DNA from: an uncultured Polaribacter sp.
Lineage (GTDB): Bacteria > Bacteroidota > Bacteroidia > Flavobacteriales > Flavobacteriaceae
NCBI RefSeq assembly: GCF_947500975.1
Contig: NZ_CANMUE010000008.1
Location: 80,690 to 144,689, forward strand
Direction of reading: 5' to 3'
Length of the DNA stretch: 64,000 nucleotides
The translations under genes were made by a program, and so were the position numbers. Positions 34,201-38,830 of the stretch are shown piece after piece (position 1 is the stretch's first letter; the number at the start of each line of letters is the position of its first letter). Below the pieces are notes generated by a model. It was not told the origin of the DNA. It searched no databases and saw nothing but the letters and a program-made list of their open reading frames with translations.

Positions 34201-34270
34201 TAACTTAGCTAACTTCTGATATATGTCATTAAAAAAGACGTTATATCACTAATAACGTGGCAGTAATTAA
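34201..34270. repeat. Candidate attC-like palindromic boundary A (weakest)
   Basis: Imperfect stem AACTTCTGATATATGTC / GACGTTATATCACTAATAACGT at the left edge of the island. Confidence 0.35.
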
Positions 34271-34278
34271 AAAACAGA

Positions 34279-35046
34279 ATGTTAAAAGTAAACTACAACA
34301 ACAAAGAATATAAGTTTCCGCAAATGAATCCTATGCAATGGAATTCTTATGTATATGGAACTATTAATTTAGATAATAATTGGCGTGAATTAGATTATAA
34401 AAACGGTGGACATACCTTAAACATAGGTGCTATTTCTTATTTTGAAGTTCCTAAACAGTTATTTAATGAATTGTATAAAAGTGAGTTCTTTTTTTCAGAA
34501 CAAATAATCAATGAAATTGAAGATGGAGAATCTTTTGAAAAACTTCCAATAATATATTTTAATTTAGATATAAATTTTACCAAAATATTTGATTTTAACA
34601 CTTATGAAAGTGTTTTGATTGGAAATATAAAAAGTAAGTTTCCTACTTTTAAAGAACTTGAAAATTTAGTTTTAGATAAAGAAATTATTGAAGATTCTTT
34701 ATTACGTTTAAGTGATTCTTTTAATTACGAACCTACACTTACGGCAATACGTTTTGGAAAAATAAAAAACAATAGTATAAACTTAATCTGTATTGCTGAA
34801 TTTGAAACTCGCAATAAAACCAAAGGAGTTATTGAAATTAATGTTTGGTTACCTATTAACTTCTATTTTGAAGCAGGTGTTTACTCAAACAGTTTTCCTA
34901 ACTTATCAATAAAAGAAAGATTAATAGAAGTTAGAGATTGCTTTGCTACAGTATATAACATATCTGAATATGATTTAACCGAAAAAATAGTTGATCAAAA
35001 AAATAAACGAGTAAAAATTCAATTTCAAAATAAAAAATGGAATTAG
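34279..35046 (+). CDS. Hypothetical protein
   Basis: 255-aa ORF; overlaps the next ORF by 10 nt. Confidence 0.65.
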   Translation: MLKVNYNNKEYKFPQMNPMQWNSYVYGTINLDNNWRELDYKNGGHTLNIGAISYFEVPKQLFNELYKSEFFFSEQIINEIEDGESFEKLPIIYFNLDINFTKIFDFNTYESVLIGNIKSKFPTFKELENLVLDKEIIEDSLLRLSDSFNYEPTLTAIRFGKIKNNSINLICIAEFETRNKTKGVIEINVWLPINFYFEAGVYSNSFPNLSIKERLIEVRDCFATVYNISEYDLTEKIVDQKNKRVKIQFQNKKWN

Positions 35047-35660
35047 TACTTGCAATAGAACAACTTTATCAAACATTTTCTAAATTAACAAAACCAACTA
35101 AAATTGTAAATTATGGATGTGTTAGTTGCATTTCTAAGGATGATGAAAAATACTTTTTACAAACACCACTTAAAAAATTGAATGATCACATTTTTGGCGG
35201 CATTATGGAGTCTGGCAATGTTATAGAAATGGGTAACGAATGTTACAAATACTTTATTCCAAGAATTTTAGAATTGATAACAATAGAAAACTATGATTTT
35301 AGTTTTTCATTTGTGGAATACATTTACCGTGATTTTGCAAAATTCGACTATAAAAACACCTTTAATGAAAAAGAAAGAAGAGCTGTTGATAATTTTTTTT
35401 ATTCATATTTAGAACAAGAATTGGCAAAACCAAAAGTTGAAAGAGATGAATCTGAAATATTTAATATTGCCGAAACAGGGTTTAATGCAATTCCTCTTTT
35501 AGAAAAAATTCAACAAAGAAAAGACTGGGGAGAAATAAAAAAAGAACTCAATTATCATCTTTATTTACAAGAAAATAAATGGGTGAAATCTAAAGCAGAA
35601 TTTAAAATTTGGAGCAAAAAAGGCACAAGAAAAAGTATAATTAATTATCTTTCAAATTAA
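35037..35660 (+). CDS. Hypothetical protein
   Basis: 207-aa ORF, apparently translationally coupled to its neighbours. Confidence 0.65.
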   Translation: MELVLAIEQLYQTFSKLTKPTKIVNYGCVSCISKDDEKYFLQTPLKKLNDHIFGGIMESGNVIEMGNECYKYFIPRILELITIENYDFSFSFVEYIYRDFAKFDYKNTFNEKERRAVDNFFYSYLEQELAKPKVERDESEIFNIAETGFNAIPLLEKIQQRKDWGEIKKELNYHLYLQENKWVKSKAEFKIWSKKGTRKSIINYLSN

Positions 35661-35668
35661 AAATTGAA

Positions 35669-36802
35669 ATGAAAAAACCGATCTCACTTTATGCTCCGGA
35701 ATATTATAACGAAAAAATTATAACTAAAAATCGCCTAATACTAAAAAAAACAAAAGCATTACTTGCTGAAGACAATAACAAGTCATTATTTATTGCAAGT
35801 GTTGAAAACACTAAAGAATACAAATGTAATATCCCAGAAATTACTGAAGAATATAGAAATATTGCCACTAGATCATTCCATAAAGACCGAGAAAAAAACT
35901 GGGAATTACAAACTAAAATTAATGGTTGTAAAATCTATACTAGCAATTGGAATGATAAAGATTATCATTTTAGAATTTATTGGATTGTTATTTCTGAAGA
36001 CCATTTAATACAACTTTTCGGGCTATTTGAACCAAAATTTTCAGGGTTTTATAAACAACATTTTATGTTGAAAGGGCTAGATACAGAAATAGATACAAGT
36101 TTTGATTTTACATCTGAAACAAATCCAAATAATTTATTTGATTGCTTTCTTGTAGAAGTAGATATTAACGAGTTGCAAGAACGAATAGATGAGGCAAAAC
36201 AAAAAGAAATTAAAGCCCAGTTTTTAAAAGAAAATTTAAAACTGTCTAACAAAAACTTTTACACCATTTTAGCTACAGAACTTAAAGAAAAAGAAGAAGC
36301 GATTATAGATAGTTTTATGTGTAAAGATTGGAATATGTATTACGACTTACACAATCCAGAGAACTTTTCTAATCCAGACAGTACGATAGAATGGGAAGAC
36401 AATTCAGATGTTTTTGAATACTACAAAAAACCACATACTGATAACTCAAAAGTAACTATTGTGTGTAACGAAACAATTTGTGATTTACATGCATTGAAAA
36501 AACTTATTGATAATATAGAAATCGCAGAACAAAAAATACTTTCTTTTTTTGAGCATTATACTTTTGGAAATGGGGGAGCTTACGCGGATGCAATTCATTA
36601 TAAATACGCTAAAATAGAAATTGAACGATTACATAATACTACTTATACCAATAATGAATTTTTAAAACGAAATTTATGCTTAAGTGATATTATATTAACT
36701 GAAAACTCTAATGAATTAAAACTATATTTTGAGTGCAGTTGGGATACTGAACATGGAATTGACATTATCTTAAATGATAAATTTGAATGCAAGACGGAAT
36801 AA
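35669..36802 (+). CDS. Hypothetical protein, possibly two-domain
   Basis: 377-aa ORF 8 nt downstream of the previous gene; C-terminal ...YFECSWDTEHGIDIILND. Confidence 0.65.
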   Translation: MKKPISLYAPEYYNEKIITKNRLILKKTKALLAEDNNKSLFIASVENTKEYKCNIPEITEEYRNIATRSFHKDREKNWELQTKINGCKIYTSNWNDKDYHFRIYWIVISEDHLIQLFGLFEPKFSGFYKQHFMLKGLDTEIDTSFDFTSETNPNNLFDCFLVEVDINELQERIDEAKQKEIKAQFLKENLKLSNKNFYTILATELKEKEEAIIDSFMCKDWNMYYDLHNPENFSNPDSTIEWEDNSDVFEYYKKPHTDNSKVTIVCNETICDLHALKKLIDNIEIAEQKILSFFEHYTFGNGGAYADAIHYKYAKIEIERLHNTTYTNNEFLKRNLCLSDIILTENSNELKLYFECSWDTEHGIDIILNDKFECKTE

Positions 36803-36947
36803 TAACTAGTGTAATGGACTAGTATAAGAAGAATAACGGATTTTTTGTACTAATTTTTGGATAAAGAGAGACCTACTTAATATTTACTTAGTTTGGTTTT
36901 AGCTATTGAACCTCTATTATTATTTTTATACATTGTTAGGCATTATT
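36798..36947. repeat. Candidate attC-like palindromic boundary B
   Basis: Left AATAATAACTA (36798-36808), right TATACATTGTTAGGCATTATT; GTTAGGC at 36935-36941 fits the integron core-site consensus GTTRRRY. Confidence 0.5.
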
Positions 36948-36949
36948 TT

Positions 36950-37999
36950 TTAATCTACTAATATTTTAGTTTCAGATAATTCCTCAACTAGTTTTTCTTT
37001 GGTCTTCTGCTTTAAATTATTGGTTGTCAACCTCAATTTTTTCAACCATTTCATCTTGTAAATTGAATCAGGTAAATCTTGTAATAAATTATTATCTAAG
37101 TCTATTTCTTTTAAATTATTACAGTTAAAAATCAGTTCAGGTATGTGCCTAACACTCTGACAAGACCACAGATGTAATACTTGCAAACTCTCAAGCAAAT
37201 GTAATTCGTCCATCAAGTTTGTTGGGTCAAATTTATTTGTCCAATTTGAGTTGATTTTTAATACTTTTAATTTTTTTAATTTCCCGATTCCTTTTGGTAT
37301 CTCTTTAAGGTTATTAATTCCTAAATTTAGTTCTGTAAGTTTTAATAATTCAAAAAGTTCTTTTGGAATTTTTATCAACCCATTACCTTCTAAATTTAAC
37401 TTTTTTAGGCTAGTAAGTTTTGCAATAGAATTGGATATTTTTGCTTTTGAAGCACTTAGTTTAAGGTCTGTCAGCTTTTTGTTTTCTTTTAATATATTGA
37501 CCATTTGTTCAAAATCAAATTTAGTAGCACCAACCAATATTTCTAATTTTGACAATTCAGTCAGTTGACTTAGTGACTTAGGAAGTTTTGTAAGAGGAAC
37601 TGCAAACAAACTTAGTGATTTTAAGTTTTTCATTTTTCCTATAGTTTCAGGAATTGTATTAAAGCTTCCAGTTATTGTCAGTTTTTCTATGTTTTCCAAT
37701 GAGAAAATTATTTCTAGCTCTTTTTCGTTTTTACAAAAAACTCCTAGTTCTTTTAGGCTAGGGTAAGAACTTAAGTTGTTTGGAAAACTCACCCTTTCAC
37801 ACCCATAAAAATTAAGTATTTTCAGTTTGGGTAACTGTGAAACAAATTCAGGTATAATCTCGATATCTGTATACCCAATATCTAATTTTTCTAAATTCTT
37901 ACATTTTTCTATTTCTGATGGAATTTCTTCCCAACCTACTAAGTCAATGCGTTTAACTGAAAGTGGGGCTTTGTTAATCTTTTTTAAGAGTTTTTCCAT
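36950..37999 (-). CDS. Leucine-rich repeat protein (cytoplasmic, no signal peptide)
   Basis: Repeated LxxLxxLxLxxNxLxxIPxx units, e.g. LKKLNLEGNGLIKIPKELFELLKLTELNLGINNLKEIP. Confidence 0.88.
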   Translation of the reverse strand: MEKLLKKINKAPLSVKRIDLVGWEEIPSEIEKCKNLEKLDIGYTDIEIIPEFVSQLPKLKILNFYGCERVSFPNNLSSYPSLKELGVFCKNEKELEIIFSLENIEKLTITGSFNTIPETIGKMKNLKSLSLFAVPLTKLPKSLSQLTELSKLEILVGATKFDFEQMVNILKENKKLTDLKLSASKAKISNSIAKLTSLKKLNLEGNGLIKIPKELFELLKLTELNLGINNLKEIPKGIGKLKKLKVLKINSNWTNKFDPTNLMDELHLLESLQVLHLWSCQSVRHIPELIFNCNNLKEIDLDNNLLQDLPDSIYKMKWLKKLRLTTNNLKQKTKEKLVEELSETKILVD

Positions 38000-38010
38000 T
38001 TCGTTTTTAA

Positions 38011-38141
38011 AATAATAACTAACGTTTTATGTGTATGATTTGTTGCGTTGGTTTAGCAAATAAATACTTAATTGAAAATCCGCGAGGATTTTCGTAAGTT
38101 GGCTAAAAGAAAGCAATAAAATATACACGGTGTTGTAGGTA
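38011..38141. repeat. Candidate attC-like palindromic boundary C
   Basis: AATAATAACTAACG...ATACACGGTGTTGTAGGTA with a perfect central hairpin GAAAATCC-GCGA-GGATTTTC (38074-38093). Confidence 0.6.
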
Positions 38142-38145
38142 GTTT

Positions 38146-38685
38146 TTATTCAATAATCTTTGTTTTTTCCTTTTTCAAATCAGATGTGAATTTAAATTCA
38201 AAATTTTGCTCTTTTTCTATGTTTTTCAGATCAAAGCTAAAAACGGTAAATTCATATTTTGAATTATTTTCTTTTTTTAATTCCGTGTAATCTTGCAATT
38301 TCCTTTTTCTCAAGTTGGCATATAATTCAGACACTTTTTTATTTGATTGTGAAATTTCTACTGCTTTTTTTATTCGGATAATTTCAGCGAGTAAATCTGA
38401 TTCAAACTTTTTCTTTGAATTTGAATATCCATTCGAATCTAAATAATTCCAAATTTTATTATTGTGAATTTCAACACTATCGATTAAACTTTCAATGAAT
38501 GAATCTCCTGCAATTCCTTTTATTTTAAATGGCCAATCTTTTTCAATTATTTTTTCCGCATTTTGATTTACAAAGTTTCCAATACTGAAAAGAGTCCAAA
38601 TTTCGAGCGTGTCATTTTTTTTCTCAATTTGTGCTAAAGTCAAACTAGAAATCAGTAAAATTAATATGTTCGTTAGTATTTTCAT
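38146..38685 (-). CDS. Hypothetical secreted protein
   Basis: Signal peptide MKILTNILILLISSLTLAQ; Lys/Glu-rich 179 aa. Confidence 0.65.
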   Translation of the reverse strand: MKILTNILILLISSLTLAQIEKKNDTLEIWTLFSIGNFVNQNAEKIIEKDWPFKIKGIAGDSFIESLIDSVEIHNNKIWNYLDSNGYSNSKKKFESDLLAEIIRIKKAVEISQSNKKVSELYANLRKRKLQDYTELKKENNSKYEFTVFSFDLKNIEKEQNFEFKFTSDLKKEKTKIIE

Positions 38686-38690
38686 TTAAT

Positions 38691-38815
38691 TACCTACAAC
38701 AATATATTAAAACAATAAAGTTAAGTTACAACCTAAAATTAGTTCATATTATAAAGTCTACCAAACTTGAAAGCAAGTATATTCTAAAATCTTACTAAAC
38801 ACATCAACCGTTAGT
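38691..38815. repeat. Candidate attC-like palindromic boundary D
   Basis: TACCTACAACAATATATT...CACATCAACCGTTAGTG; TACCTACAACA is the exact reverse complement of TGTTGTAGGTA at 38131-38141. Confidence 0.5.
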
Positions 38816-38830
38816 GTTTTTCAAAGTTTA

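Follow-up and report, generated by a model that had tools for sequence, protein, structure and literature searches.

A probable mobile gene cassette beside truB in a Polaribacter genome and a putative Bacteroidota integron lineage with a non-IntI integrase

The window, the whole stretch of 64,000 nucleotides analysed here, contains an island of genes between a TonB receptor gene and truB. An earlier note described four long imperfect palindromes (A to D) at the edges of this island and between its genes, and took the genes for cassettes of an integrase-less array with attC sites of a diverged Bacteroidota family. Are these genes integron cassettes, and what could have moved them? The cassette nature and the attC family hold up, but the array in the window does not, since the window has one attC (C), one well supported cassette and one probable, partly decayed cassette with an LRR gene. 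As judged from sequence comparison, the 179-aa gene by truB very likely belongs to a Bacteroidota integron lineage as a mobile cassette that came to lie outside any array, at a non-canonical chromosomal site.

A single attC-like site in the window

All sequences quoted in the earlier note are present in the window where it had placed them. Folded as DNA, segment C exceeds its dinucleotide shuffles (z -4.3 on the plus strand and -3.2 on the minus strand, with none of 200 shuffles equal). In contrast, the other three supposed palindromes fold at chance level on both strands in the same comparison, with z values of -0.7 and -0.9 for A, +1.2 and +1.1 for B, and -0.1 and +0.4 for D. When C was used as a DNA query against 59 genomes, most relatives of the genus showed strong matches, clustered and on one strand per cluster. 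The covariance model R1, with 147 positions, was built from an alignment of 30 full-length copies. Applied to the island with filters off, R1 matches C alone, at 125.7 bits; the best fragment of D reaches 12.8 bits (E 0.09). Segments A, B and D were rejected as attC-like sites on account of their chance-level folds and the lack of an R1 match. An Rfam search gave no match.

The perfect 11-bp inverted box reported around the 179-aa gene is indeed there, as TGTTGTAGGTA at 38131-38141 and TACCTACAACA at 38691-38701, and these are its only two exact copies in the 64 kb. This box is the end signature of a cassette and no component of a palindrome D. The features of the island are as follows.

38011..38147, plus strand (consensus orientation): attC-like site C, with a fold, 125.7 bits to R1 and homologues in the arrays of relatives; in the cassette direction it reads on the minus strand, gene first and site second, and it is the single family member in the window
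38146..38685, minus strand: ORF of the 179-aa gene of the predicted cassette, whose protein has copies at 100% and 94% identity in the genome G066
38023..38699, minus strand: predicted cassette of the 179-aa gene, comprising the gene and its attC (C), with G^TT bounds at both ends at the presumed crossover position
38691..38701, no strand: D box, read as the junction of the insertion and the cassette's outer box, with no fold and no R1 match beyond it
36950..37999, minus strand: gene of a 349-aa LRR protein (PF23598, E 6e-29, and other LRR models)
36935..38022, minus strand: probable second cassette (LRR gene), with ends complementary at 11 of 13 positions and its own attC decayed or lost
36798..36934, no strand: segment B, with a fold at chance level and no R1 match, at most a decayed attC

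Three plus-strand ORFs at 34279-36802 (255, 207 and 377 aa) lie between the TonB receptor gene and B. Apart from a weak match to DUF6985 in the third, they gave no family matches, and they have no cassette features.

Arrays of the site family in relatives

Searching relatives with a covariance model, proposed earlier as a check, uncovered a family of sites. Over 361 kb, R1 finds 213 of them, on one strand per array except for the mirror match of one palindrome on itself. Arrays can be long, with more than 100 sites in 95 kb in the genome G013 and more than 50 in about 85 kb in G016. In the orientation of C, the family consensus reads AAT-N7-AACG...TGTGTATG...(loop)...ATACACGGTGTT-N7-AGTTTTT. 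AAC and GTT are kept, but the core-site motif GTTRRRY, which had been offered as a clue, is no feature of the family; it fits the R' box at 3.5% of the sites of one array and at 25% of those of a second, and was rejected as the consensus.

The ends of the units follow a rule. The seven nucleotides after the GTT of one site complement the seven before the AAC of the next, perfectly in 92 of 113 cases in G013, where other offsets give 11-15. The G016 array has 29 of 53 pairs at 7/7 and 19 more at 6/7, against 0-3 at other offsets, and in other genera at least 6/7 is reached by 26 of 31 pairs. The outer N7 of a site thus pairs with the N7 that faces it in the next site, and its own other side is not its partner. 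Such complementary unit ends would be expected if each unit had once been circular and a folded attC had brought its two ends together. In an alignment fitted to the R1 model, so that the figures lean towards this model, 95.1% of hairpin cells are paired versus 37-55% in slid controls, and 27 of 33 pairs have changed on both sides, with 452 such cells versus 144 in shuffles. Conservation of an attC hairpin with paired outer boxes is supported by these comparisons.

Same-strand tandem cassettes, each ending in an attC, as expected of an integron, are found in the arrays of relatives; the window has a single site. Among the G016 units, 39 of 42 ORFs are oriented gene-then-site. In the G013 array (C1:2950001-3050000; L043-L047), which has a median spacing of 547 bp, 71 of 106 units have no ORF of at least 60 aa. 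These ORF-less units are apparently non-coding cassettes, many of them alike in sequence. The cargo seen in the G016 array (L038-L042) includes genes for a cytosine DNA methylase, a DRT-type reverse transcriptase, a GNAT protein, a beta-lactamase-family protein and an erythromycin-esterase-like protein.

The 179-aa cassette and its neighbour

The ends of the 179-aa cassette, at 38132-38141 and 38691-38700, are perfectly complementary. The N-terminus of its protein resembles a signal peptide, and a Pfam search with this protein gave sub-threshold matches alone. The protein was found in one of 59 other genomes of the genus, that of another species (G066), which has two copies, 100% and 94% identical. 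The DNA of the window and of the first G066 copy is 98.7% identical over 599 bp, as against 86% identity between the truB proteins of these genomes. Homology to both copies stops at window position 38700, which is the last base of TACCTACAAC and the predicted end of the cassette. Past this position, the G066 copies run into attC sites and the window runs into unrelated DNA, AATATATTAAAACA. D is therefore best taken as an insertion junction and no site, and the cassette, the end of which abuts this non-attC DNA, as lying outside any array. At the opposite end, the homology with G066 enters the proximal part of the attC, the interior of which differs. In its reconstructed circular form, the attC of the window has z values of -5.6 and -7.5 when folded. 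Taken together, these comparisons support the cassette structure, the hairpin conservation and past movement. Among 20 relatives, which differ in the genes 3' of truB, no empty target by truB was found, nor a close homologue of the window's TonB receptor next to truB.

The boxes around the LRR gene, at 36935-36947 and at 38011-38023, agree at 11 of 13 positions as had been reported, which is below typical units of the family. With such ends, this gene probably makes up another cassette, in part decayed, that lies behind the 179-aa cassette. The possibility of a cassette common to species was rejected for this gene, as the LRR protein has no homologue at E 1e-30 in 59 genomes of the genus.

The array integrase and its attI-like site

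That no integrase accompanies the cassettes is correct locally, but not for the whole genome. In the arrays of relatives, a tyrosine recombinase of about 390 aa is followed by an attI-like sequence, TATAACNAGTT, and then by the array. No gene scores above the TIGR02249 cut-off of 265 bits in this genome (G000) or in 13 relatives; most of these genomes have a tyrosine recombinase of about 370-416 aa that stays below it (about 190-211 bits). Its gene is located at the array end in several complete relatives, beside the attI-like site, which also backs the likeness to integrons. In G000 it lies on another contig, at an end of C11, as would be expected if an array broke the assembly. The attI-like sequence, ATATAAC(C/G)AGTT or a close variant followed by N7-AATT, is mostly 20-200 nt 3' of the integrase stop. 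Two integrase copies in the genome G001 are identical through AGTT and diverge right after it. Relatives of the integrase occur in Winogradskyella, Lutibacter, Mesonia, Bizionia, Polaribacter, Algibacter, Aequorivita and others, and at the loci from many genera 53 of 55 sites are downstream of the integrase and on the opposite strand.

The catalytic R, K, HxxR, H and Y are invariant in the integrase alignment. Identity to IntI1 is 37% in this alignment, which had a provisional IntI1 row; later comparisons used real IntI1 genes. The array integrases share with IntI (TIGR02249) the catalytic residues, the core and a C-terminal SPLD-like ending. They differ in scoring under the cut-off and in the spacing from K to HxxR, which is 62-65 residues versus 106-108 in 23 IntI, with no intermediates, and they are without the IntI insertion of about 42 aa. 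In a quick tree, which carried long-branch warnings, the 23 IntI form one fully supported clade separate from the array integrases. An additional domain around patch III is called a defining trait of IntI (PMC9668308), and by this trait the array integrase, which has no such domain, is not an IntI. IntI without the domain has been reported as inactive (Messier and Roy 2001, as cited in PMC9668308), and the array integrase would therefore need another way to bind attC.

The predicted structure of the array integrase (mean pLDDT 84.7, pTM 0.60) has an N-terminal domain of about 90 aa with a beta-beta-alpha-beta-beta-alpha order, for which no relative was suggested among the matches listed. The rest of the predicted fold matches XerA and IntI. 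XerA-type enzymes are close in several respects: 5hxy is the best solved-structure match by sequence, XerA is among the best by predicted fold, and the array integrase scores just under the NF040815 cut-off. Unlike these enzymes, it has the extra N-terminal domain, and its association is with cassette arrays instead of dif sites. Shorter insert-less integrases (about 280-320 aa) without the N-terminal domain were also observed (G118:C33, G126:C44, G261:C13 and Gracilimonas L168); they sit at the end of the array and are arranged divergently, like classical intI. It is noted that more than ten near-identical genes for tyrosine recombinases of 296-321 aa, found every 7-9 kb at G013:C1:2093162-2284996, belong to a tandemly repeated element and are unrelated.

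Distribution in Bacteroidota

Among 396 Bacteroidota genomes, 54 have sites (39 genera) and 102 have integrase matches at the survey threshold of E 1e-90, a number that is no integron count because this threshold also admits shorter relatives. Both are found in 35 genomes (Fisher p 6e-11). Sites were listed within 40 kb of 17 integrases. In 13 of these cases the order is integrase and then sites downstream on the other strand; three short integrases show the divergent classical order and one fits neither. Family sites are also present on plasmids of Tenacibaculum, Persicobacter and Flagellimonas and in phages of Tenacibaculum and Polaribacter, which makes plasmids and phage possible routes of transfer. 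Examples carrying sites are the Tenacibaculum finnmarkense plasmids CP116298.1 and CP116296.1 and the Tenacibaculum phage JQ (MT002873.2).

Proposed mechanism and alternatives

These sequences are best read as an integron lineage of Bacteroidota whose integrase is not an IntI. A cassette would excise as a circle, and its attC would fold as a single-strand hairpin in which the outer boxes of the circle's two ends pair. The circle could then be joined at G^TT by a dedicated tyrosine recombinase, its partner being another attC, the attI-like site directly 3' of the integrase gene or, occasionally, a secondary site. That the array recombinase is the enzyme of this reaction, that it acts on one folded strand, and where exactly the crossover falls, we infer by analogy with integrons. 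In our assessment, integron-type gene capture probably has a second form, a lineage widespread in Bacteroidota with a XerA-like recombinase that has the N-terminal domain of about 90 aa and no IntI insertion, single-strand hairpin sites, arrays of more than 100 cassettes and scattered single cassettes. The proposed cassette-like nature and diverged attC family are borne out by the same-strand arrays, the complementary ends, the covarying hairpin and an interspecies cassette with exact ends.

It is unlikely that the locus is an ordinary CALIN, left behind by canonical IntI integrons, and that an IntI present elsewhere in the population moved its cassettes. The attC-like site without a local integrase would agree with this, and insert-bearing IntI is present in Bacteroidota (L186). 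One of two attC sites of the Polaribacter phage P12002L was active with IntI1 in a published assay (PMC9892861), and the same phage carries R1 matches, among which the active attC may be. However, the TIGR02249 result in this genome and the 13 relatives speaks against an IntI, and the array ends are occupied by the insert-less integrase and the attI-like site. A CALIN has at least two attC without an integrase (PMC9024848), whereas the R1 search finds a single site in the window and the genome has an integrase. A still less probable alternative is that the cassettes are real but owe their movement to host XerC/D or to some other recombinase, with the integrase at the array end as a passenger. 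Host Xer proteins are present, and 19 of the 54 site-bearing survey genomes have no integrase match at the threshold used, but the order of integrase, attI and array is consistent across genera, and the sequence changes exactly at GTT behind the two integrase copies. Independent mobile repeats (REP- or MITE-like) in intergenic regions, with no cassette sites, are hardly credible: the conserved hairpin, many copies per genome and lone copies scattered over chromosomes would suit them, but the cassette-end rule, by which an outer box finds its partner in the next site and not across its own, contradicts random sites, the single strand per array is left unexplained, and the interspecies homology spans the gene and ends at the box.

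The proposed Bacteroidota integrons resemble the Vibrio-type superintegrons in having an integrase gene, an adjacent attI-like site and long one-strand arrays of gene then attC, in attC sites that are foldable imperfect palindromes with complementary outer boxes, and in cassettes common to species. Unlike in sedentary chromosomal integrons, the integrase has the extra N-terminal domain and lacks the IntI additional domain; in most cases its gene is not divergent but points at the array, and attI lies 3' of it. The outer boxes are longer, about 10 bp with AAC/GTT, and otherwise sequence-free, whereas those of classical attC are RYYYAAC/GTTRRRY.

IntegronFinder 2.0 reported few integrons in Bacteroidetes, where In0 only had been known before, and then one complete integron in Salinibacter ruber (PMC9024848). 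Our literature search, the coverage of which lacked preprints and most subscription journals, found no account of such Bacteroidota arrays; a large gene-capture system has apparently been overlooked so far. If the recombinase acts on attC-like hairpins without the IntI insertion, it becomes testable whether single-strand recombination needs this domain, and whether the insertion is required or is one solution among several. If true, this also bears on how integrons arose from Xer-like enzymes. The arrays represent a large uncatalogued store of cassettes, defence genes included.

Cassettes outside arrays

Lone cassettes are common in the genus and scattered over the chromosomes. When every one of them is closed at its N7 box, about half give attI-like junctions, such as AAC joined to TCGTTATAT; the remaining junctions, including that in the window, have other sequences. 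Near lone cassettes at 20 loci, one strong (partial) integrase match and a few weak ones were found. An adjacent integrase was rejected as a rule for lone cassettes, most of the 20 loci being without a recognisable gene. Insertion of cassettes outside attI is known for IntI as attG (Loot et al. 2024, as cited in PMC12901181). The truB junction resembles these insertions, in which cassettes lie outside attI and attC. As cited there, attG insertions are described for IntI, whereas here the recombinase would be a different one, and the target has no defined motif. Several of the lone cassettes L223-L241 end at an attI-like sequence without an integrase, and the junction of L235 continues into the apparent 3' end of an integrase gene.
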